DNA of 64,000 nt from Candidatus Cloacimonadota bacterium (GTDB lineage Bacteria > Cloacimonadota > Cloacimonadia > Cloacimonadales > JAIOQZ01). Shown in pieces: positions 31,112-40,943 of the stretch; positions within the stretch are counted from its first letter, which is position 1, and each line of letters opens with the position of its first letter. The translations under genes were made by a program, and so were the position numbers. Under the pieces are notes generated by a model, which saw only the letters and a program-made list of their open reading frames with translations, was not told where the DNA came from and ran no database searches. Where the stretch lies: contig JAIOQZ010000057.1 in assembly GCA_021108395.1 (NCBI GenBank), positions 1 through 64,000 on the forward strand, written 5' to 3'.

Positions 31112-31708
31112 ATGAATAAAAGACAACAGCAAAAACTCGCCACCAGACAGAAACTCGTGAACACCGCACGCAAGCTGTTTATCAAGCAGGGCTTTCTGGA
31201 AACCACCACAGTCCAGATAGCCAAACAGAGCGGTGTGGCGCACGGCACGTTATTCGTCCACTTCCCCACCCGTGACTATCTCATGATTGAAGTGCTGGAT
31301 GCGGAAATGGAGCTGCTCAGCGACGAGCTGAACCAGGTTGCGAGCCGCACGGGAGACTTCTTCGAGCTGCTTGACCGCTATCTCGATTTCCTCATCGAGC
31401 ACGAAGACATCTTCGCCGTGCTTGCCCGTGAACTGCCCTTCTACCCTGACGAGCTTCGCCGCAAGGCGCTGTTCCGTCAAGCGGGCATCCAGGGGCATTT
31501 TCACCGAGCGCTGTCGGACGCCGTGGTGACTGACCGGTTTCCCGCTTGCAATGCCGGCATGGTCGTGCAAACTGTGTTCGCCCAGTTGCACTACTATCTG
31601 TCGTTGCGGTCTGTGTTCGTTGATGAAGGCAGTGTGATCGAGCGATTTCGCCGGCGCATCGTGTCCATCGCGCGGAGTCTGGTGACATTCAGCGGGGAGA
31701 AATCATGA
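31112..31708 (+). CDS. TetR-family transcriptional regulator
   Basis: 198 residues: N-terminal TetR DNA-binding domain (LVNTARKLFIKQGFLETTTV, IAKQSGVAHGTLFVHFPTRDYLM) and an all-helical ligand domain from about 65. Divergent from the YtrA operon; the 163-base gap carries separate operator-like palindromes for each. Its last bases overlap the MutL-like gene (ATGA at 31705-31708), so the two are translationally coupled and the regulator probably controls that gene. The ligand is unknown. Confidence 0.93.
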   Translation: MNKRQQQKLATRQKLVNTARKLFIKQGFLETTTVQIAKQSGVAHGTLFVHFPTRDYLMIEVLDAEMELLSDELNQVASRTGDFFELLDRYLDFLIEHEDIFAVLARELPFYPDELRRKALFRQAGIQGHFHRALSDAVVTDRFPACNAGMVVQTVFAQLHYYLSLRSVFVDEGSVIERFRRRIVSIARSLVTFSGEKS

Positions 31709-34700
31709 AGCACGAAGAAACCATCTACACCTGTCAGAGTTGTGGCCGCATTATGCAGCAGGCCAGTGACTTTGGCGGTGGCCGCGTGGGCAACGCCTAC
31801 TGTAGCCGCTGCGCCGACGAATTCGGCTTTCTGCGCGGCTACTCCGACGTCGTTTCCGGCATACACGCCATGCTCGAACAACAGCTCGACATCGCCCCCG
31901 GCGAAGCCCGACGCATCGCCGAGGAAAACATCTATAACGTTCCAGCCTGGATGAAAAGGGAGAAACACATGCAGGACACAACCACTATCCTTATCACCGA
32001 CATAGGAAGCACTACGACTAAAGCCGTATTGCTTGAGAAAAGCGACGCCGGCTTCGCCATAGTCGATTTGCACCACGCGCCCACTACGGTCGAGAAACCG
32101 CACGAGGATGTTCGCATCGGAGTCTGGCAGGCAGTGAAAGGCCTGGAAGAAAAAACGGGCAGAACGCTGCTGCTGGCAAACACTACGCCGCAGGAACTCG
32201 CCTTCGCGCCCGGTGTGCTCTACCTCACCACCAGCAGCGCCGGTGGCGGACTGCAAATACTCGTGGTCGGCCTCACCGTTACCGACTCGGCCAGTAGCGC
32301 CCGTCGCGCCGCCTATGGCGCAGGCGGCGTACTGCTCGACACCTTCGCCATCGACGACAAGCGGTCGGCTGTCGAGCAGATGCTGGCCATGCAGGCGCTT
32401 CACCCCGATATCATCCTGTTCTCCGGCGGCATCGATGGCGGCGCCGTCACCGGGCTTGTTCGCCTGGCCGAGATATTGTCGCTGTCAAATCCGCGTCCCA
32501 AGTTCGGCGGCAGCTCAATACCGCTGGTGTACGCCGGCAACCGCGACGCGGAAGCCCTTGTCCGTAGCGTTTTCGCCGACAGCTTCGATCTGCACGTTGT
32601 TCCCAACCTGCGCCCCACCATGACCGACGAAAACCTCGAACCGGCGCGGCAGACAATTCACCGCCTGTTCATGGATAAAGTAATGCAGCAGGCGCCGGGC
32701 TACGGCGAAGTGAAGAAAATCGCCACCGACGACATCATCCCCACGCCGATGGGCGTCATCAAGTCGCTGCAACTGCTCAGTCGCTCGCTGGACGAGAACA
32801 TCGTCGCCGCAGACATCGGCGGCGCCACCACCGACATCTTCTCCAACATCCTGGGGCAATACTATCGCACCGTCAGCGCCAACCTGGGCATGAGTTACTC
32901 TGTGTGCAATGTGCTGGCCGAAACCGGCTATGCCAACATTGCCCGCTGGCTGCCGGGCAGTCTCGACGAGACAGCCGTGCGCGATTATATCGGCAACAAG
33001 ATGTTGCGACCAGAGCAGAACCCGTCGTGGGACTGGGAATTCGCAATCGAACATGCCTGTGCGCGGGAAGCGCTGCGTTTGGCTCTTGCGCAACATATGG
33101 GCATGCACTTCAACACCGAAAAGATTGGCTTTCTCGACCGCCTCAAGCTCGTGGACTATGACAAGTTCACCGAGACCGTTTATGTCGAGAAGAAGATGGA
33201 AGAGCGCAAGTTTCGCGGAGACTCGATCAACATAATGATTGCCGCCGGTGGCGTTATCTCGGCTGCCTCGCCACAGCAGGCCGCGCTCATCATCGCCGAT
33301 GGAATGCAGCCGCGGGGCGTCACCGAGATATGGCGAGACCGCCGCTTCATCTCGCCACACCTCGGCAAGCTCAGCGATATGGACGAACAGCTCGCCCTCG
33401 ACCTGCTGCTCGAACACACCTATCAGCGGTTGGCGGTGGTCATTCGCCCCGTTTGGCGCAAGGCGCGCCCTGGCGAAGAAGCGTTCGAGCTGAAAATCGA
33501 TGGCCCGCAGGGTGTCGAGACGCTGACGGTGAAGACCGACAGCCTGATGTGGTTGCCGGCCACGAACGGCGTACGCCGGTTGAGCTGGATCACGCGCAAG
33601 GGTTACGGGCTGCCTGAAAACGCGGACATGGAGACCGAGCTGCCGGTACTCATCGATACGCGACTCGAGCCAAGCTCCTGCCGCGATGCAGCCCTCGAAA
33701 TGTCCGGTTTCGCTACCGTAGCGCCACCGGACATACACGAGCCGCATCCATCGAGGTTGATGGCTGATATGGCCGGAGAAGACCTCTCGGTTCGCCTCGA
33801 ACTGCCCTATCCGGGCGAGATTCTCGTCAAGGCCGGCGACAGAGTGCAGCCGAACACGCTGGTGGGTGAAAACCGCTACGACCCGCCCAAAATTTTCATC
33901 CTGTCCCTGTTCAACCTCGACGGGTTGGCTATGGACGCCGAGCGGTTGCGCCAGAGCCTGCTGGTCAAGATTGGCGACGAGATACGCGCCGGGCAGAAGA
34001 TCGTGGACACCCGCGATCACGGCCTGCTCGACGACCTCACCGGCAAGCGAAAGAATTTCCACTCCCCCATAAGGGGCAGGGTCGAGGGCATCAACTACGA
34101 AGCAGGAGTCATCGTGGCGCGTGAGATTCAGGACTACTCGACAAAGCCGGTAAAGGTGAACGTGGCCGCCAAACTTGGAGTCGAGCCCAAAAGCGTCAGA
34201 GGCCTGATGAAAAAGAAGCGCGGCGATTTCGTCTATGCGGGCGAAGTGCTGGCCAGTCGCCTGCTCGACCGCAACGCCGCGCCGTCGAAGATGTTCTGCC
34301 ACGCGCCATCCACCGGCACCATCACCGACATCGACACAAAATCGGGCAAGGCCACCATCCGCTACGACCGTGAGCCTTTCGAGCTACACGCGGGCGTGTG
34401 TGGCGTGGTGGAAAGCGTCGAAGAGACGCGGGCGGCCACCATCCGTTTCGAGGGACTTCAGATGTACGGCATTATCGGGTTCGGTCCGCACGGGTGGGGT
34501 ACGCTCGATGTACTGGAGAAGGCCGCCCTGCCCATTGACGCCCGCCTCGACGGCAAAGTTCTGGCCTGCATGCAGCCGGTCGATGCGGCCTTCATGCGGG
34601 CGGCTGTGAAAGCTGGCGTGAACGGAGTCGTGGCGCCATCGATGCCACAAAAGGAAGCGGTGGCCTGGCTCGAGGCCGAGATTGGGGTGGCGCTCACGGG

Positions 34701-34878
34701 CAATGAACCTGTGGCCTGTCCGCTTGTGCTCACCGAAGGATTCGGGCTGCTGCCGATGAGCGCGGAGCGACGTGAGCGATTTACCGAGCACAGCGGAGGA
34801 ATGTGTTATCTGCGCGCAGCCACGCAAATTCGGGCAGGCGTGGAGCGTCCGCGAATAGTGCTCTATAACAGCGAGTGA
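31705..34878 (+). CDS. Large MutL/GlmL-like ASKHA protein with zinc ribbon and barrel-sandwich extension
   Basis: 1057 residues. The N-terminal zinc ribbon has Cys 10, 13, 33 and 36, followed by a helical linker. The MutL (glutamate mutase accessory, PF13941) ATPase domain spans about 90-560, with phosphate loops DIGSTTTKAV (about 96) and ADIGGATTDI (about 369) and the glycine run LFSGGIDGGAV. MutL proteins are thought to protect or reactivate B12-dependent mutases. Beyond 690 lie two biotinyl/RnfC-like barrel-sandwich segments (LPYPGEILVKAGDRVQPNTL; KKKRGDFVYAGEVLASRL) and a further alpha/beta domain, well beyond the usual length of about 460-600. No mutase is adjacent; a cobalamin adenosyltransferase is encoded at 50.4 kb. 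Confidence 0.85.
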   Translation: MKHEETIYTCQSCGRIMQQASDFGGGRVGNAYCSRCADEFGFLRGYSDVVSGIHAMLEQQLDIAPGEARRIAEENIYNVPAWMKREKHMQDTTTILITDIGSTTTKAVLLEKSDAGFAIVDLHHAPTTVEKPHEDVRIGVWQAVKGLEEKTGRTLLLANTTPQELAFAPGVLYLTTSSAGGGLQILVVGLTVTDSASSARRAAYGAGGVLLDTFAIDDKRSAVEQMLAMQALHPDIILFSGGIDGGAVTGLVRLAEILSLSNPRPKFGGSSIPLVYAGNRDAEALVRSVFADSFDLHVVPNLRPTMTDENLEPARQTIHRLFMDKVMQQAPGYGEVKKIATDDIIPTPMGVIKSLQLLSRSLDENIVAADIGGATTDIFSNILGQYYRTVSANLGMSYSVCNVLAETGYANIARWLPGSLDETAVRDYIGNKMLRPEQNPSWDWEFAIEHACAREALRLALAQHMGMHFNTEKIGFLDRLKLVDYDKFTETVYVEKKMEERKFRGDSINIMIAAGGVISAASPQQAALIIADGMQPRGVTEIWRDRRFISPHLGKLSDMDEQLALDLLLEHTYQRLAVVIRPVWRKARPGEEAFELKIDGPQGVETLTVKTDSLMWLPATNGVRRLSWITRKGYGLPENADMETELPVLIDTRLEPSSCRDAALEMSGFATVAPPDIHEPHPSRLMADMAGEDLSVRLELPYPGEILVKAGDRVQPNTLVGENRYDPPKIFILSLFNLDGLAMDAERLRQSLLVKIGDEIRAGQKIVDTRDHGLLDDLTGKRKNFHSPIRGRVEGINYEAGVIVAREIQDYSTKPVKVNVAAKLGVEPKSVRGLMKKKRGDFVYAGEVLASRLLDRNAAPSKMFCHAPSTGTITDIDTKSGKATIRYDREPFELHAGVCGVVESVEETRAATIRFEGLQMYGIIGFGPHGWGTLDVLEKAALPIDARLDGKVLACMQPVDAAFMRAAVKAGVNGVVAPSMPQKEAVAWLEAEIGVALTGNEPVACPLVLTEGFGLLPMSAERRERFTEHSGGMCYLRAATQIRAGVERPRIVLYNSE

Positions 34879-35177
34879 GGCAGGTTTGAAGCGGTGTTGC
34901 ATGGGGGGAACACAACCCTGTGTTCCTGACTGGGTTAAAAATTAGTTTGACAAGGGGTAAAGCGGCTTGAAAAGATGTATAATCTATAAGCGGGGGCAGC
35001 GTAACGGTTTGAAACAAACGGTGGCTGTTTCCTCTGCACCTGCAATGCATATACGGAAGGAACAGTGTGAAACCGAACATGTCGATAACAGCCGACGTTT
35101 GCCAGATTTGCCGACCCCAAGTATTTTGTAATCCCCCCATGTTCGCAACATAGTTATAATACATCCAAGGAGAACGT
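34879..35177. other. Intergenic region ahead of the four-gene membrane operon
   Basis: A TTGACA at 34947-34952 and a perfect TATAAT at 34978-34983 are 25 bases apart, too far for a standard pair; the TATAAT may be used with another -35. No terminator follows the MutL-like gene that I can see. A 28-codon frame from 35044 has no ribosome site and is probably chance. Confidence 0.45.
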
Positions 35178-38100
35178 ATGATGCGCAGACTACACTTGCC
35201 GCTTCTCTTCATCATGTCGATGTTGGCCTGTGTCGTGTTTTTGAACGCACAGGAAAACATCGTGCAGAACCTCCTGGTGGAAGACGTCCCAGACGATGAC
35301 GGCAGCGGCCTCATCCTCAGTTGGGCGCCTCTTCCCAAGGAAGAACGGATCATCGAGTACCGCGTCTATCGCGGCCTCAGTCCCGATTCGCTGTTTTTCA
35401 TCGGCAACATCCCGGTGAATGCAGAGGTGGGCGTCGCCGCCGAAAAGATGTACTTCTACGACAAGGACTACAGCAGGTTCCTTGGAATCAACTCGCCTGG
35501 TCGCTTGAAGCAGGAGAGACAACAGCCGGAGGGCAGCCCGCTTTATCGGGAGATCCCCCGTGATCTCAACATCACAGGCCCCATGCTGGCTCACTTTCGC
35601 ATTCTGGGCGTGATTCCAGTCGATGAATTCTACCACCACTCCACCAAGATCGTCTATCCGGCAGAAGCGCCCGCCGATACGACTATGGAGCAGGAAGACG
35701 ACGAAGTCTGGGCCGGCCTCAAGATTCGCCAGCTCTCGATGTACAAGAAGCTCAAGTCCAATCATCCATACTGGTACACCGTTGTGGCAGTGAACGAGTC
35801 GCGCCGTTTCTATCCTCACGCCGAACCGGCCATGGGTATCCCGCGCGACAACGCTCCCGAGTTGATTGGAGATCAATTTTATGCCGCTTTTGTGGATGGC
35901 GCCGAGAAGGACTGGCTGCAGTTCGAGTGGGAATATCCACTGGTGCAGGCCGATGTCGCTTATTTCAGCGTCTATGTGATGTCCAAAGACGACCTGGCGG
36001 CCTTTGAGGCCTTTACCACATACCAGAGCGACTACGCGGCCTTCATGATGGAAGCGCTCAACTACCGCGAACTCGTGGTGGCCGAGATCGAGAACGTTAT
36101 CGCTGTTCTGCGCGATGGCGGCGCAGTTGCGCAGTCCACCATCGAGAGCCTCGAAGGTTTCATCTTTACCACGCGCATGACCCCCGGCTCGCGTATGGCC
36201 GATGCCCGCGAGGAACTGTTGGCGGAAATCGCCGAGGCCGGCCCGGCAGATGAGCCGCTGGTGCGCCCGCTGCTCGAACGCATCAAATACAGCGCCACAG
36301 CAGAGATGCCTCTGCTGATGACCGAACGCATAGACGCCGGCGAGGCGATTGCCGAGACCGATTTCGCCCCGCGCCTTACGATTGTTGAACCCGAAGCTAT
36401 CGAGAACCCCGCGAACGTTATATATCGCGAGCAGCGTATGCTTGCCCCTCTGCCACCCAACAGTTGCGTGGTCGAGCTGGACGAACGCAGCCACATCATC
36501 GATACCGACTGGGACGTCGATATCGCGCTCGACACCGCGGCGATGGAGAATTACTGCTTCATTTTCTCCCTCTACGACGGTGGCGGAGCCGAGACCTTCT
36601 CGAACGTGAAGTTCATGTATGCGGACGGCCCGCAGAAGAACATCCTCGTCGAATCCGATCTGCCTGCGCTGCCCGATAATTTCCAGATTATCGACAGTCC
36701 CAACGACCAGGGTGACTATAACTCTGTTATGTGGGGCCGGCCAGTGGTGCATCTCACTAAGAGCGAATTCCTGGATGACGACCACACCAGACTGCGCGTC
36801 AACTACGACATAGTGACCAACGAACTGTACACCATCAAGAACGTTTACTTCGATGTTTACGATAACTTTGCCGGTGAAGGCGAGCCAATCTTCACGTCCG
36901 ACGAATTCTTTCAGGATTCCAAGATCATCGTGAACCTGCCCGAAGGCACTGACTACAAGAGCACACCGCTCACATTTGTCATGAGATTCCGCACAGACAA
37001 CGATGAAGAACTGGGCGAGAACTACGCCTTCGTGCAAAACCTGGAGTGGAATACCGAGTCACGCTCGATGGCGCCGACTGAACTCATCTTCCAGGGCGAG
37101 AACGTCAATGACTTCAGTTATTTCATCTACAACCAGGCCATGATGGACCCGCAATACACGCTGGTCAAGAAAACCCAGGGCTCCCAGCGCAATCTCGATG
37201 ACAGCATCAGCTATGTCGAGAACGTATTCAAGGGCATCGGTCGCTATGACGCCGACGAGCAGGTTGTGCTGGTGAGCACCACCATCGACGTCCTGCGCGA
37301 TCATGAATACGAGGTCGATCTGCGCACGGACATCTATCACTCCCTGCGCGATGAATACTCCGCGGACATCGATGAATACACCGCAGAGCTGGTCGAGCTG
37401 AGAACCACGCACACAGAGCAGCTCGCCGTCTTCCGCGCCGCCGCCGCTCTCGCCGATGGCGAACTGGGCGACCTCGCCCGCCACCTTGTTTCCGCCGAAG
37501 AAGCCCTGCTGGCCGACCCGGAAAACAAAGAGGCCAAAGAGCAGCTTACACTCGCATGGATAGCGCTGAACAACGCCGGCGACATCGATGGCCAGGGCGA
37601 GCTTTATGGCGCCGATGGCCAGATCGCTCGTCTTCAGGACAACCTCCTGGAAGCCCAGCGCCAGCTCGAAAACCCGGTGATGCAGCGTTCATTCGAGTTC
37701 GGCAGCAATAAAAGCCGCATGCGCTATTTGATGGCCGAACGCCATAAAGTGAAGCGCACCTTCCGCTACTATATGGTGAAGACCGACGGCGAGGCGCGGT
37801 TCAATCGCTCTGCCGTCTATGTGAACCCGGGGGGCGAAGAATGGCTCTACCCGGTGTCCAACTGGTTCGACACCGACAAGATCGTGATGCTGATCGCCAC
37901 GGCAATATTCGCCTTCATGGTGTTCTTCATGATCCGCAAGGCGCGCAAGGGGCACGACCTCTACCTGCGTCCCATCGCCGGTATCCAGGAGATTGACAAC
38001 GCCATTGGCCGCGCTACCGAGATGGGCCGCCCCATCCTGTTCGTGCCGGGCCTTTCGGGCATCGGCGACGTTGCCACACTGGCCGGACTGGCCATTCTGG

Positions 38101-38633
38101 GCAAGGTGGCCAAGAAAGCCGCCGAATACGACACCCGCATTCTGGTGCCGTGTCGTGACTACATCGTGCTGCCCATCGCTCAGTCCATCGTGCGTGAGGC
38201 GCACTATGAAGCCGGGCGCCCCGACACCTACGACAAGAACAGCGTCTTCTTCATCACTACTTCGCAGTTCGCCTTCGTGGCGGGCGTGAACGGTATCATG
38301 ATTCGTGAAAAGACAGCTACCAACTTCTATATGGGCATGTTCTACGCCGAGTCGCTCATTATGACCGAGACCGGCACAGTGACAGGCGCCATCCAGATAT
38401 CCGGTACCGACGCCGTCACCCAGATCCCGTTCTTCATCACCACATGTGACTACACACTCATTGGTGAAGAACTTTACGCCGCCGCCGCCTATCTGGCGCG
38501 CGAGCCGAAATTGCTGGGAACGCTCAAGGCGCAGGACTACTTCAAGTTCCTTGTTCTGACCTTCATCATCGCGGGAACGATATTGTCATCGCTGCACGTC
38601 ACGTTCCTGATTAACACCTTCCCCGAAAGATAG
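35178..38633 (+). CDS. Large DUF6754-type membrane protein, first gene of a four-gene operon
   Basis: 1151 residues. Signal peptide (1-24), a fibronectin-III-like start (LILSWAPLPKEERIIEYRVYR), then a long extracytoplasmic region with several beta-sandwich stretches and a charged helical, probably coiled-coil, segment (about 735-840). A transmembrane helix at about 902-922 precedes a cytoplasmic domain with the DUF6754 pattern (IQEIDNAIGRATEMGRPILFVPGLSGIGD, from about 935), and a last transmembrane helix lies at about 1124-1146. AAGGAG is 5 bases before the ATG. Function unknown; a surface sensor or transport scaffold whose cytoplasmic part works with the next three proteins is an inference from gene order. 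Confidence 0.7.
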   Translation: MMRRLHLPLLFIMSMLACVVFLNAQENIVQNLLVEDVPDDDGSGLILSWAPLPKEERIIEYRVYRGLSPDSLFFIGNIPVNAEVGVAAEKMYFYDKDYSRFLGINSPGRLKQERQQPEGSPLYREIPRDLNITGPMLAHFRILGVIPVDEFYHHSTKIVYPAEAPADTTMEQEDDEVWAGLKIRQLSMYKKLKSNHPYWYTVVAVNESRRFYPHAEPAMGIPRDNAPELIGDQFYAAFVDGAEKDWLQFEWEYPLVQADVAYFSVYVMSKDDLAAFEAFTTYQSDYAAFMMEALNYRELVVAEIENVIAVLRDGGAVAQSTIESLEGFIFTTRMTPGSRMADAREELLAEIAEAGPADEPLVRPLLERIKYSATAEMPLLMTERIDAGEAIAETDFAPRLTIVEPEAIENPANVIYREQRMLAPLPPNSCVVELDERSHIIDTDWDVDIALDTAAMENYCFIFSLYDGGGAETFSNVKFMYADGPQKNILVESDLPALPDNFQIIDSPNDQGDYNSVMWGRPVVHLTKSEFLDDDHTRLRVNYDIVTNELYTIKNVYFDVYDNFAGEGEPIFTSDEFFQDSKIIVNLPEGTDYKSTPLTFVMRFRTDNDEELGENYAFVQNLEWNTESRSMAPTELIFQGENVNDFSYFIYNQAMMDPQYTLVKKTQGSQRNLDDSISYVENVFKGIGRYDADEQVVLVSTTIDVLRDHEYEVDLRTDIYHSLRDEYSADIDEYTAELVELRTTHTEQLAVFRAAAALADGELGDLARHLVSAEEALLADPENKEAKEQLTLAWIALNNAGDIDGQGELYGADGQIARLQDNLLEAQRQLENPVMQRSFEFGSNKSRMRYLMAERHKVKRTFRYYMVKTDGEARFNRSAVYVNPGGEEWLYPVSNWFDTDKIVMLIATAIFAFMVFFMIRKARKGHDLYLRPIAGIQEIDNAIGRATEMGRPILFVPGLSGIGDVATLAGLAILGKVAKKAAEYDTRILVPCRDYIVLPIAQSIVREAHYEAGRPDTYDKNSVFFITTSQFAFVAGVNGIMIREKTATNFYMGMFYAESLIMTETGTVTGAIQISGTDAVTQIPFFITTCDYTLIGEELYAAAAYLAREPKLLGTLKAQDYFKFLVLTFIIAGTILSSLHVTFLINTFPER

Positions 38634-38642
38634 GAGCAGACA

Positions 38643-39272
38643 ATGTTCAAACGACAAATACCGCTGATGATTGTCATCATCCTGGGTTTCATATTTGTGG
38701 CGCATAGTTTCATACCCGCCAAGATTTCTCAGGATTTCTATTTCGAATGGTACCAGCCCTGGGTCAAAGCGATGAGTCCGTTTGCTGTCATCCTGGGCAT
38801 TATGAGCCTGGTTATGGTGCATGGCACCAAGATCAAGCGTAAAGCACCCAACTGGCCATACAGCCTGGTCATCTTCGCTGGGCTTATCGCTACTGCGGCA
38901 TTCGGTTTCATCTGGGGACGTCAGGCTGGCACCCCCTACATGTGGATGTTCGAGAACGTGCAGATGCCGCTGGGCGCTACCATGTTCTCGCTATTGGCGT
39001 TCTATATCGCCTCGGCGGCCTACAAGGCGTTCCGAGCGAGATCACCGGAGGCGACCGTGCTGCTCATTGCAGCCGTAATCGTCATGCTGGGGCGGATTCC
39101 GCTGGGCGCCGCCATCACCCACTGGATTCCCGACAGCACCACCTGGATTCTGAATGTACCCAACCTGGCGGCCAAACGTGGCATTGCGCTGGGAGTGGGA
39201 CTGGGTATGGTGGCCACGTCATTGAAAATCATTCTCGGCATCGAGCGCACCTATCTCGGTGGCGGGGAATAG
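38643..39272 (+). CDS. Six-helix membrane protein of the DUF6754 operon
   Basis: 209 residues, nearly all membrane: helices at about 6-24, 44-61, 71-91, 109-128, 139-158 and 183-202. Short cytoplasmic loops carry Arg/Lys pairs. I recognise no transporter signature or catalytic motif. AGGAG lies before the ATG, 9 bases after the stop of the large first gene, so translation is coupled. Its membership in this operon suggests a role as a channel or anchor for the large first protein. Confidence 0.72.
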   Translation: MFKRQIPLMIVIILGFIFVAHSFIPAKISQDFYFEWYQPWVKAMSPFAVILGIMSLVMVHGTKIKRKAPNWPYSLVIFAGLIATAAFGFIWGRQAGTPYMWMFENVQMPLGATMFSLLAFYIASAAYKAFRARSPEATVLLIAAVIVMLGRIPLGAAITHWIPDSTTWILNVPNLAAKRGIALGVGLGMVATSLKIILGIERTYLGGGE

Positions 39273-39282
39273 GGGAGGACGC

Positions 39283-40242
39283 ATGAACTTCTTTGATAAA
39301 CTGCAACATCTCGACCGGCGCTGGATTTACCTTGTAGTGGCGCTGGCCATCATCATCCCCTTCCTGATACCGTTCAACCAACGTACATACACAACCGAGC
39401 CGGTAGAGAACATTTATCAGTTGCTCGACAGCTACAAAGGCAGCGACGAAAGAGCGCTACTAATGGTCTTTTCGCACGATGCCGGCACCATGCCCGAGCT
39501 GTTCCCCATGGAGGTGGCCGTCCTGCGCCACTGCTTCCTGCGGAAGATCAAGGTGTTCACGCTGTGTTTCACCCCTACCGCCGAGCCTATCATGACGATG
39601 GCCATCGAGGAAGTGAAAATCGAATTCCCCGATATCGAGTCGGGGGTGGACTACTGCAACTTCGGATACAAGCCCTATGCGCTGTATATGCCAATCGTTC
39701 TGGGCATGGGCGACGACATCGCCGAGGCTGTCGAAACAGACGCCGAGGGACGCAATATCGCCGAACTCCCCATCATGGAAGGTATCGTCAATTACAACGA
39801 GATGAACTTCGTGATGGAATTCTCGGCTTCATCCGCCGGCTATATGTGGTACACCTTCGCCCGAGCGCGATTTGGCGCCAACGTTGCCGCCGGCATCACC
39901 GCCGTTATGGCCGCCGACCAATACCCGTTCATCCAGAGTGGGCAGCTTGTAGGCATTCTGGGCGGGCTCAAGGGCGCCGCCGAGTATGAAGAACTGGTTG
40001 ACATCTTCGCCGCTCACGAGAATGAGCAGGGCGAACCGGCTCCGAGAGAGTTTTCGAGGGCCATTGTGATGGATGCCGACGAGGCGATTGACATCACCAG
40101 CGATTCAGTGCCCTACGAGTTCAAGAAAGCGCGACTGGGCATGAACGCCCAAACCGTCGCTCATGTGATGATCATCGTGTTCATCTTGCTGGGCAACATT
40201 GGTTTCTTCTTGCAGCGTCGCAAAGAAAAGAGAATGGGTTAG
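39283..40242 (+). CDS. Membrane-anchored protein of the DUF6754 operon
   Basis: 319 residues from ATG 39283 (GGGAGG 4 bases upstream). One N-terminal helix (15-34) and one C-terminal helix (about 288-309) flank a soluble domain of about 250 residues. That domain begins with a Rossmann-like stretch RALLMVFSHDAGTMPELFPMEVAVLRH and has a glycine-rich middle (GANVAAGITAVMAADQYPFI). No known active site is evident. The pattern of anchored soluble domain and polytopic partners suggests a complex with the other three products. Confidence 0.7.
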   Translation: MNFFDKLQHLDRRWIYLVVALAIIIPFLIPFNQRTYTTEPVENIYQLLDSYKGSDERALLMVFSHDAGTMPELFPMEVAVLRHCFLRKIKVFTLCFTPTAEPIMTMAIEEVKIEFPDIESGVDYCNFGYKPYALYMPIVLGMGDDIAEAVETDAEGRNIAELPIMEGIVNYNEMNFVMEFSASSAGYMWYTFARARFGANVAAGITAVMAADQYPFIQSGQLVGILGGLKGAAEYEELVDIFAAHENEQGEPAPREFSRAIVMDADEAIDITSDSVPYEFKKARLGMNAQTVAHVMIIVFILLGNIGFFLQRRKEKRMG

Positions 40243-40252
40243 GGAGGATAGC

Positions 40253-40855
40253 ATGGCAGAACTCACATTTGGAAAAATCGTTGCTGCATTTCTCACGTTG
40301 TGCATCTTCTCGTTTCTCTACAAGGAGAATCCGTTCTATCGCTTCGCCGAACACCTGTTTGTCGGCGTGTCGATGGGCTACGCGATACCGCTGGTGTATG
40401 ACAACGTGTTCATCCCCTATGTATATGTGCCCATAGTCCTGGAGCACAACTTCATCATCATCATCCCCGCCCTCGTGGGTATCATGTATCTCACACGGTT
40501 CAGCCGCAATCTCGGCTGGATGAGTCGCTACCCGATGGTGTTCTTCATGGCCGCCACCGGTATGTACGTCGCTCTGTCGATGAACGCTTCGGTGCTGGTG
40601 CAGATGCGCTCGGCCATGTTGCCCATCGAAAACTTCAATATCTTCCTCATCTTCATCGGTACCGTGAGCGTCCTGATGTACTTCTTCTTCAGCAAGGCCC
40701 ACACCGGGTTCTATGGGAAGTTCACCAAGATTGGCATCTGGTATATGATGATAGGCTTCGGCGCGTCATTCGGTTACACTGTGATGGCGCGTATCTCGCT
40801 GCTCATCGGACGTATCCAGTTCCTCATGGGCGATGTGCTGGGGATTATGAAATAG
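40253..40855 (+). CDS. Polytopic membrane protein closing the DUF6754 operon
   Basis: 200 residues with about six transmembrane helices. The first loop carries the motif KENPFYRFAEHLFVGVSMGY, which I believe is conserved in such operons. ATG 40253 has GGGAGG 5 bases upstream and starts 10 bases after the previous stop. No transporter or enzyme signature is apparent. A strong terminator follows, so the operon ends here. Confidence 0.7.
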   Translation: MAELTFGKIVAAFLTLCIFSFLYKENPFYRFAEHLFVGVSMGYAIPLVYDNVFIPYVYVPIVLEHNFIIIIPALVGIMYLTRFSRNLGWMSRYPMVFFMAATGMYVALSMNASVLVQMRSAMLPIENFNIFLIFIGTVSVLMYFFFSKAHTGFYGKFTKIGIWYMMIGFGASFGYTVMARISLLIGRIQFLMGDVLGIMK

Positions 40856-40876: not shown

Positions 40877-40907
40877 AGCCCCCGGTGCACTCGTGCCGGG
40901 GGCTTTC
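40877..40907 (+). terminator. Terminator of the DUF6754 operon
   Basis: AGCCCCCG (40877-40884) pairs with CGGGGGCT (40897-40904), with an inner GCAC/GTGC pair, followed by TTT. Confidence 0.85.
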
Positions 40908-40943
40908 ATATTTGGAATGCCGCAGGGCGATACTGCACCTAAG

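Follow-up and report, generated by a model that had tools for sequence, protein, structure and literature searches.

A four-gene membrane cassette with a DUF6754 protein and an associated MutL-like ATPase: a candidate envelope system conserved across about ten bacterial phyla

We analysed a stretch of 64,000 nucleotides (the window) from contig JAIOQZ010000057.1 of a Candidatus Cloacimonadota bacterium (assembly GCA_021108395.1; genome of 2.9 Mb, 98% complete), in which four closely packed genes, here called A, B, C and D, follow a gene for a large cytosolic protein, E. Both this cassette and its link to E have been conserved in about ten phyla. We tentatively read positions 31705-40855 as one copy of an undescribed envelope system, an ATP-driven machine of the inner membrane whose full form is F-E1-E2-A-B-C-D; this reading we regard as possible rather than probable. 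E1 and E2 are the two parts of E, and F is a small protein encoded at other loci. That the genes belong to one module is well supported; mechanism and cargo are inferred.

Results

The cassette in the window

A first-pass annotation, made from the sequence alone, had described four packed genes with gaps of 9-10 nt and a single terminator, and had proposed from their order that they act together as a dedicated envelope machine. The open reading frames (ORFs) bear out this layout (Table 1): the A/B, B/C and C/D gaps are 9, 10 and 10 nt, a purine-rich ribosome-binding site precedes each of the four starts, and the 12-pair stem with its T-rich tail behind D (40877-40904) is a strong terminator that closes the operon. 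A begins 299 nt downstream of E. Since homologues of the cassette proteins retain 28-58% identity across phyla, the genes are protein-coding beyond doubt, as had been supposed.

Table 1. Positions of the features discussed (window coordinates unless a locus is given).
Feature	Position	Strand	Description	Basis
E	31705-34878	+	1057-aa cytosolic protein, E1 fused to E2	Pfam; homologues directly upstream of A in several phyla
E1 part of E	within 31705-34878	+	MutL/GlmL-type ASKHA ATPase, residues 95-570	PF13941
E2 part of E	within 31705-34878	+	Barrel-sandwich domain (about 751-797), conserved C-terminal domain (about 816-1056)	
A	35178-38633	+	1151 aa; exported protein with signal peptide, long periplasmic part with helical/coiled-coil stretch, then helix, cytosolic DUF6754 domain, helix	ORF, Pfam, AF2; topology predicted from sequence
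DUF6754 domain of A	37857-38618	+		Pfam match, alignment, AF2 model
B	38643-39272	+	209 aa; six-helix membrane protein, no family	ORF, Pfam; directly after A in every complete cassette
C	39283-40242	+	319 aa from ATG 39283; N-terminal helix, Rossmann-like alpha/beta domain 39-249, C-terminal helix, no family	ORF, Pfam, AF2, homologues
D	40253-40855	+	200 aa from ATG 40253; polytopic membrane protein, about six helices, no family; last cassette gene	ORF, Pfam
Intrinsic terminator after D	40877-40912	+	12-pair GC-rich stem (9 G-C), T-rich tail	
TonB-dependent receptor and ECF-type importer cluster	L015 11199-15186; L021 and L022 upstream of A		Beside set-II cassette	

Gene order across phyla

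Scanning of a genome collection returned at least 576 relatives, of which the best 80 hits, at 79 loci, were kept; the distribution given here is that within the phyla listed below. Many of the genomes are draft metagenome assemblies, and phylum labels were taken from the depositors' record titles, some of which are apparently wrong. The titles name Cloacimonadota, Zixiibacteriota, Coatesbacteria, Latescibacterota, Stahlbacteria/WOR-3, Fermentibacteria/Aegiribacteria, Neomarinimicrobiota, Gemmatimonadota, Planctomycetota (Phycisphaerae, Gimesia, Planctomycetaceae) and Caldithrix. Two others are probably misnamed metagenome bins: locus L045 is titled "Armatimonadetes" yet is 78% identical to the Cloacimonadota query, and for L114 the title Puniceispirillum is at odds with sequence or distribution.

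Using profiles of A, B, C and D on the scan loci plus those of the window's own phylum, we counted 113 complete A-B-C-D cassettes in Cloacimonadota and about nine other phyla. The gaps between cassette genes have a median of 3 nt and measure at most 60 nt in 97% of cases. Incomplete cassettes were mostly cut by contig ends, and in Caldithrix (L107) the order is kept despite inserts between the genes. Clear stand-alone genes were limited to five extra copies of A and one fusion. The former belong to an A-B-C-D-A' arrangement with a second long A directly after D (L028, L029, L030, L033, L034), found in some Cloacimonadota families. The latter, on a Zixiibacteriota chromosome (L074 6485-8872), joins a DUF6754 protein C-terminally to an S49 peptidase domain (E=1e-43), with no B, C or D adjoining. 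Synteny in distant phyla, which the annotation had set as the test of its proposal, was thus found; apart from these exceptions, separate occurrence of the genes in relatives, an outcome it had named as contradicting it, was not seen.

Within Cloacimonadota a DUF6754 gene was detected in 122 of 125 genomes, usually in 2-3 copies of which one is short (~370 aa) and one long (~930-1150 aa), and C in 38 of 40 same-phylum relatives. Overall, copy numbers of DUF6754 range from 1 to 7 per genome; none of the 14 control genomes contained one. A viral origin of the cassette was considered and rejected, as IMG/VR yielded no relative.

The ATPase module upstream of the cassette

Clustering of all flanking proteins identified the E family as the most widespread neighbour of the cassette (36 loci). 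The protein in the window matches the MutL family PF13941 at E=1.3e-92 (311.4 bits against a gathering score of 27), and both phosphate-binding motifs of the ASKHA (acetate and sugar kinase/Hsc70/actin) fold, TDIGSTTTK and DIGGATTD, are intact. In other phyla E is usually encoded by two genes, E1 (~610 aa) and E2 (~375 aa), directly before A; this was seen in Planctomycetota, Gemmatimonadota, Fermentibacteria, Neomarinimicrobiota and others. The small protein F (~115 aa, no Pfam match) sits before E1, and complete F-E1-E2-A-B-C-D runs are present in L126, L132, L147 and L149. A PF13941 gene was found in 28 of 29 genomes checked, and F in all 13 Cloacimonadota genomes searched. Because of this conserved synteny we regard A-B-C-D as a system and E, with F and E2, as a member of it. 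The proposal of a four-gene system therefore holds in that the four belong together, but its boundary was drawn too narrowly, leaving out E as well as the F and separate E2 genes of other loci.

The closest named relatives of E1 are GlmL and ornithine OR-4. E1 shares with GlmL/MutL (PF13941; NF040745, TIGR01319) the MutL domain and both phosphate-binding motifs, but it scores below all NCBIfam cut-offs (191 vs 475 bits for the GlmL equivalog NF040745, 127 vs 204 for TIGR01319). It is moreover linked to membrane genes instead of a B12-dependent mutase, its conserved neighbours being F, E2 and A-D, and a barrel-sandwich protein is fused to it or encoded behind it. Matches of E2 to biotinyl-lipoyl, RnfC_N, NqrA_N and KOW models are weak but recurrent; those to the N-terminal barrel-sandwich domains of RnfC (PF13375) and NqrA (PF05896) occur in 8 and 5 of 18 members, and E itself matches RnfC_N at E=7.6e-5, under the Pfam cut-off. 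The rest of RnfC and NqrA, their Fe-S domains and partner subunits are absent, and most E2 proteins carry a KOW-like C-terminal tail. The best match of E alone in a PDB search had an E-value of 0.39.

Some features of this module vary locally. The E protein of the window has ~85 additional N-terminal residues (31705-31950), unseen in the other fused E proteins viewed, with a borderline zinc ribbon at residues 9-82 (Zn_ribbon_2, 22.2 vs 22.5 bits). A TetR-family regulator (31112-31708) overlaps the start of E by 4 nt and possibly regulates it; it is not conserved at the other loci viewed. By eye, a ComF-like gene was recognised just upstream of F in L121, L122, L125 and L129 (Cloacimonadota, Caldithrix), and, in three lineages (L061, L124, L126, L138-L140), a gene similar to that for glycine dehydrogenase subunit 2 upstream of F-E1.

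The cassette proteins

Residues 894-1147 of A match DUF6754 (PF20539) over nearly the whole profile (positions 3-256 of 257; E=6.7e-117, 389.6 bits against a cut-off of 27). A is clearly a member of this family, the entry for which covers the domain only and does not mention B, C, D, F or the association with E. The AlphaFold2 (AF2) model of the region (mean predicted local distance difference test score, pLDDT, 88.8) consists of a helix (899-923), a six-strand alpha/beta Rossmann-like domain (936-1107) and a second helix (1110-1138), in agreement with the two late membrane helices and DUF6754-type assignment made earlier. By the positive-inside rule the domain is predicted to face the cytosol. 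It is exceptionally well conserved, with a mean column identity of 63% (56 sequences, about ten phyla) compared to 49% for B, 47% for D and 36% for C. The ectodomain of A, in contrast, varies between copies, and fibronectin-III matches were detected in 3 of 28 A proteins. A had been called a giant protein; the 1151 residues apply to the window, but this length is a lineage variant and most relatives have 350-500 aa.

C had been described as an anchored soluble-domain protein, and its AF2 model (pLDDT 89.5) has just this plan of helix, soluble domain and helix, as in the A domain. Here the positive-inside rule predicts that the soluble domain is periplasmic. The alignments contain a single invariant cysteine in A and none in C. 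Homology of the two alpha/beta domains, suggested by their similar order of helices and strands, was unsupported by profile-profile comparison, and PDB sequence searches with both profiles gave no usable match.

B, C and D matched no Pfam or NCBIfam family above cut-off; B showed a weak, sub-threshold 7TMR-DISM match. Neither B nor D matched PF01618 or PF02472 in Pfam, so they are not members of the ExbBD/TolQR proton channels, and Pfam detected no ATP-binding cassette (ABC) ATPase and no ABC or energy-coupling factor (ECF) transmembrane domain in the subunits. As the annotation had noted, no member matches a known transporter.

Duplication of whole cassettes

Zixiibacteriota, among others, have ABCD-ABCD(-ABCD) tandem arrays. 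Tree distances of A, B, C and D correlate (Spearman 0.73-0.82), and at multi-cassette loci all four proteins point to one and the same nearest paralogous cassette in 413 of 490 comparisons. Cassettes are duplicated as whole units. In the host genome, the window copy ("set I") has a fused E adjoining a long-A cassette, a separate F-E1-E2 run lies on another contig (L121), and a second cassette with all four genes lies on a third (L015 7348-11171). The duplication appears ancient, since the window cassette groups with long-A cassettes of Cloacimonadota and next with particular cassettes of other phyla (L053_c2, L060_c3) rather than with the second one in the host genome. The B protein of that second cassette (L015 8820-10010, 396 aa) carries an insert of ~165 residues with tetratricopeptide-like (TPR-like) repeats in a predicted periplasmic loop, which the listed relatives lack.

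Discussion

We propose that A, B, C and D may form one inner-membrane complex. B and D would provide the membrane core, and C would face the periplasm together with the variable N-terminal part of A, which is fibronectin-III-like where recognised. The near-invariant cytosolic DUF6754 domain would be the docking site for the ATPase module. E1, with its actin/Hsp70-type fold, is predicted to bind and hydrolyse ATP, the barrel-sandwich domain of E2 (with F where present) would couple this to A, and a conformational change would be relayed through the membrane. Paralogous cassettes with differing A ectodomains could then represent the same engine fitted to different periplasmic partners. PilM of type IV pili and FtsA of the divisome belong to ASKHA-driven envelope machines. 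The analogy to these is one of working principle, a cytosolic actin-fold ATPase that would serve a set of inner-membrane proteins; no homology between their membrane subunits and A-D was seen, and physical coupling of the ATPase to the membrane complex is here predicted from gene order.

Most likely the system assembles, exports or energises a component of the outer envelope, because ExbBD/TolQR genes are recurrently found nearby. Of 27 non-Cloacimonadota genomes, 9 have an ExbD/TolR gene no more than 10 kb from A or E1, compared to 1.4 expected from copy numbers; the genome-level probability presupposes independent genomes, a condition that does not hold. Zixiibacteriota have Tol-Pal genes after E2 and WOR-3 an ExbB-ExbD-ExbD run after D; in Gimesia ExbBDD precedes F, and in Fermentibacteria D is followed by a TonB receptor, ExbB and ExbD. 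TonB-ExbBD and Tol-Pal probably share a compartment with the system, but A-D have no homologue among ExbB, ExbD, TolQ, TolR and TonB.

Several observations weigh against this interpretation. The ExbD association is confined to about four lineages, and 18 of the 27 genomes lack it; no ExbD gene lies beside the window copy. Cloacimonadota outside the lineage of the window often carry E and A-B-C-D at separate loci. Three Cloacimonadota genomes contain MutL-family genes and no DUF6754 match, possibly due to incomplete assemblies. Foldseek comparison of the AF2 models of the A domain and C with the PDB gave no match at E<=1e-3, the results for both being scattered Rossmann-type and chance matches with template modelling (TM) scores of about 0.2-0.4. 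Finally, the complex, its ATPase activity, its cargo and its localisation are predictions drawn from genes and protein models.

Four other explanations were considered. A-D could be the inner-membrane and periplasmic module of an uptake system, e.g. for a cofactor or metal complex, that works with a TonB-dependent receptor and ExbBD and receives ATP from E. Besides the Fermentibacteria, WOR-3 and Gimesia arrangements above, it is the set-II cassettes of several Cloacimonadota that point in this direction, as beside them lie genes for a TonB-dependent receptor and for an ECF-type ABC importer, the latter comprising two ABC ATPases and a CbiQ-like subunit. This importer is, however, complete by itself, most cassettes have no receptor nearby and the members are unrelated to known importers, which leaves uptake unlikely.

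The kinship of E1 with GlmL and the resemblance of E2 to RnfC and NqrA could alternatively mean that E acts like GlmL, as a chaperone that reactivates an enzyme with a B12 or redox cofactor, and that A-D are the membrane enzyme it services, Rnf/Nqr-like or corrinoid. We consider this rather improbable: E1 falls far short of the GlmL equivalog cut-off, no mutase gene accompanies the system, Pfam found no corrinoid, flavin, Fe-S or quinone-binding subunit domain in A-E, and the invariant cysteines number one in A and zero in C.

At least as improbable is a role in lipid or membrane homeostasis (phospholipid supply or trafficking). It would account for the PlsX-FabH genes found after E1 in WOR-3/Stahlbacteria and after D in Phycisphaerae; these form a housekeeping cluster, however, which was unseen nearby in the other phyla viewed, and none of the proteins has a recognised lipid-binding fold. 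A signalling complex, in which the variable A ectodomain monitors the envelope and the Rossmann-like domain passes the signal on to cytosolic partners, would fit the contrast between the two parts of A, the DUF4388 protein downstream of D in WOR-3 and the 7TMR-DISM match of B, but is very improbable, as none of the conserved partners is a receiver, kinase, cyclase or DNA-binding protein and the ATPase is left unexplained.

Our database and open-licence literature searches found no described counterpart of the seven-gene system. Open-licence papers yielded none naming DUF6754 and no relevant work on membrane operons that include GlmL-like ATPases; the main text of an essential-gene study of Planctopirus limnophila (PMC10632474) mentions neither DUF6754 nor MutL. 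Of the seven components, five belong to no described family or to a DUF only. Absence from the model organisms tested may explain why the system has been overlooked.

The strict gene order in about ten phyla, the near-universality in one phylum and the mean identity of the DUF6754 domain indicate strong constraint, and the module therefore probably does something basic for the cell envelope. With confidence just short of even, we suggest that F-E1-E2-A-B-C-D represents a widespread class of ATP-driven, inner-membrane-spanning machines with interchangeable periplasmic heads, nearly universal in Cloacimonadota, present in many FCB (Fibrobacterota, Chlorobiota, Bacteroidota) bacteria, Planctomycetota and candidate phyla, and with no counterpart in the model bacteria tested. 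Gimesia-type planctomycetes and a Caldithrix-labelled genome carry the system, and as both genera include cultured members its function is directly testable.

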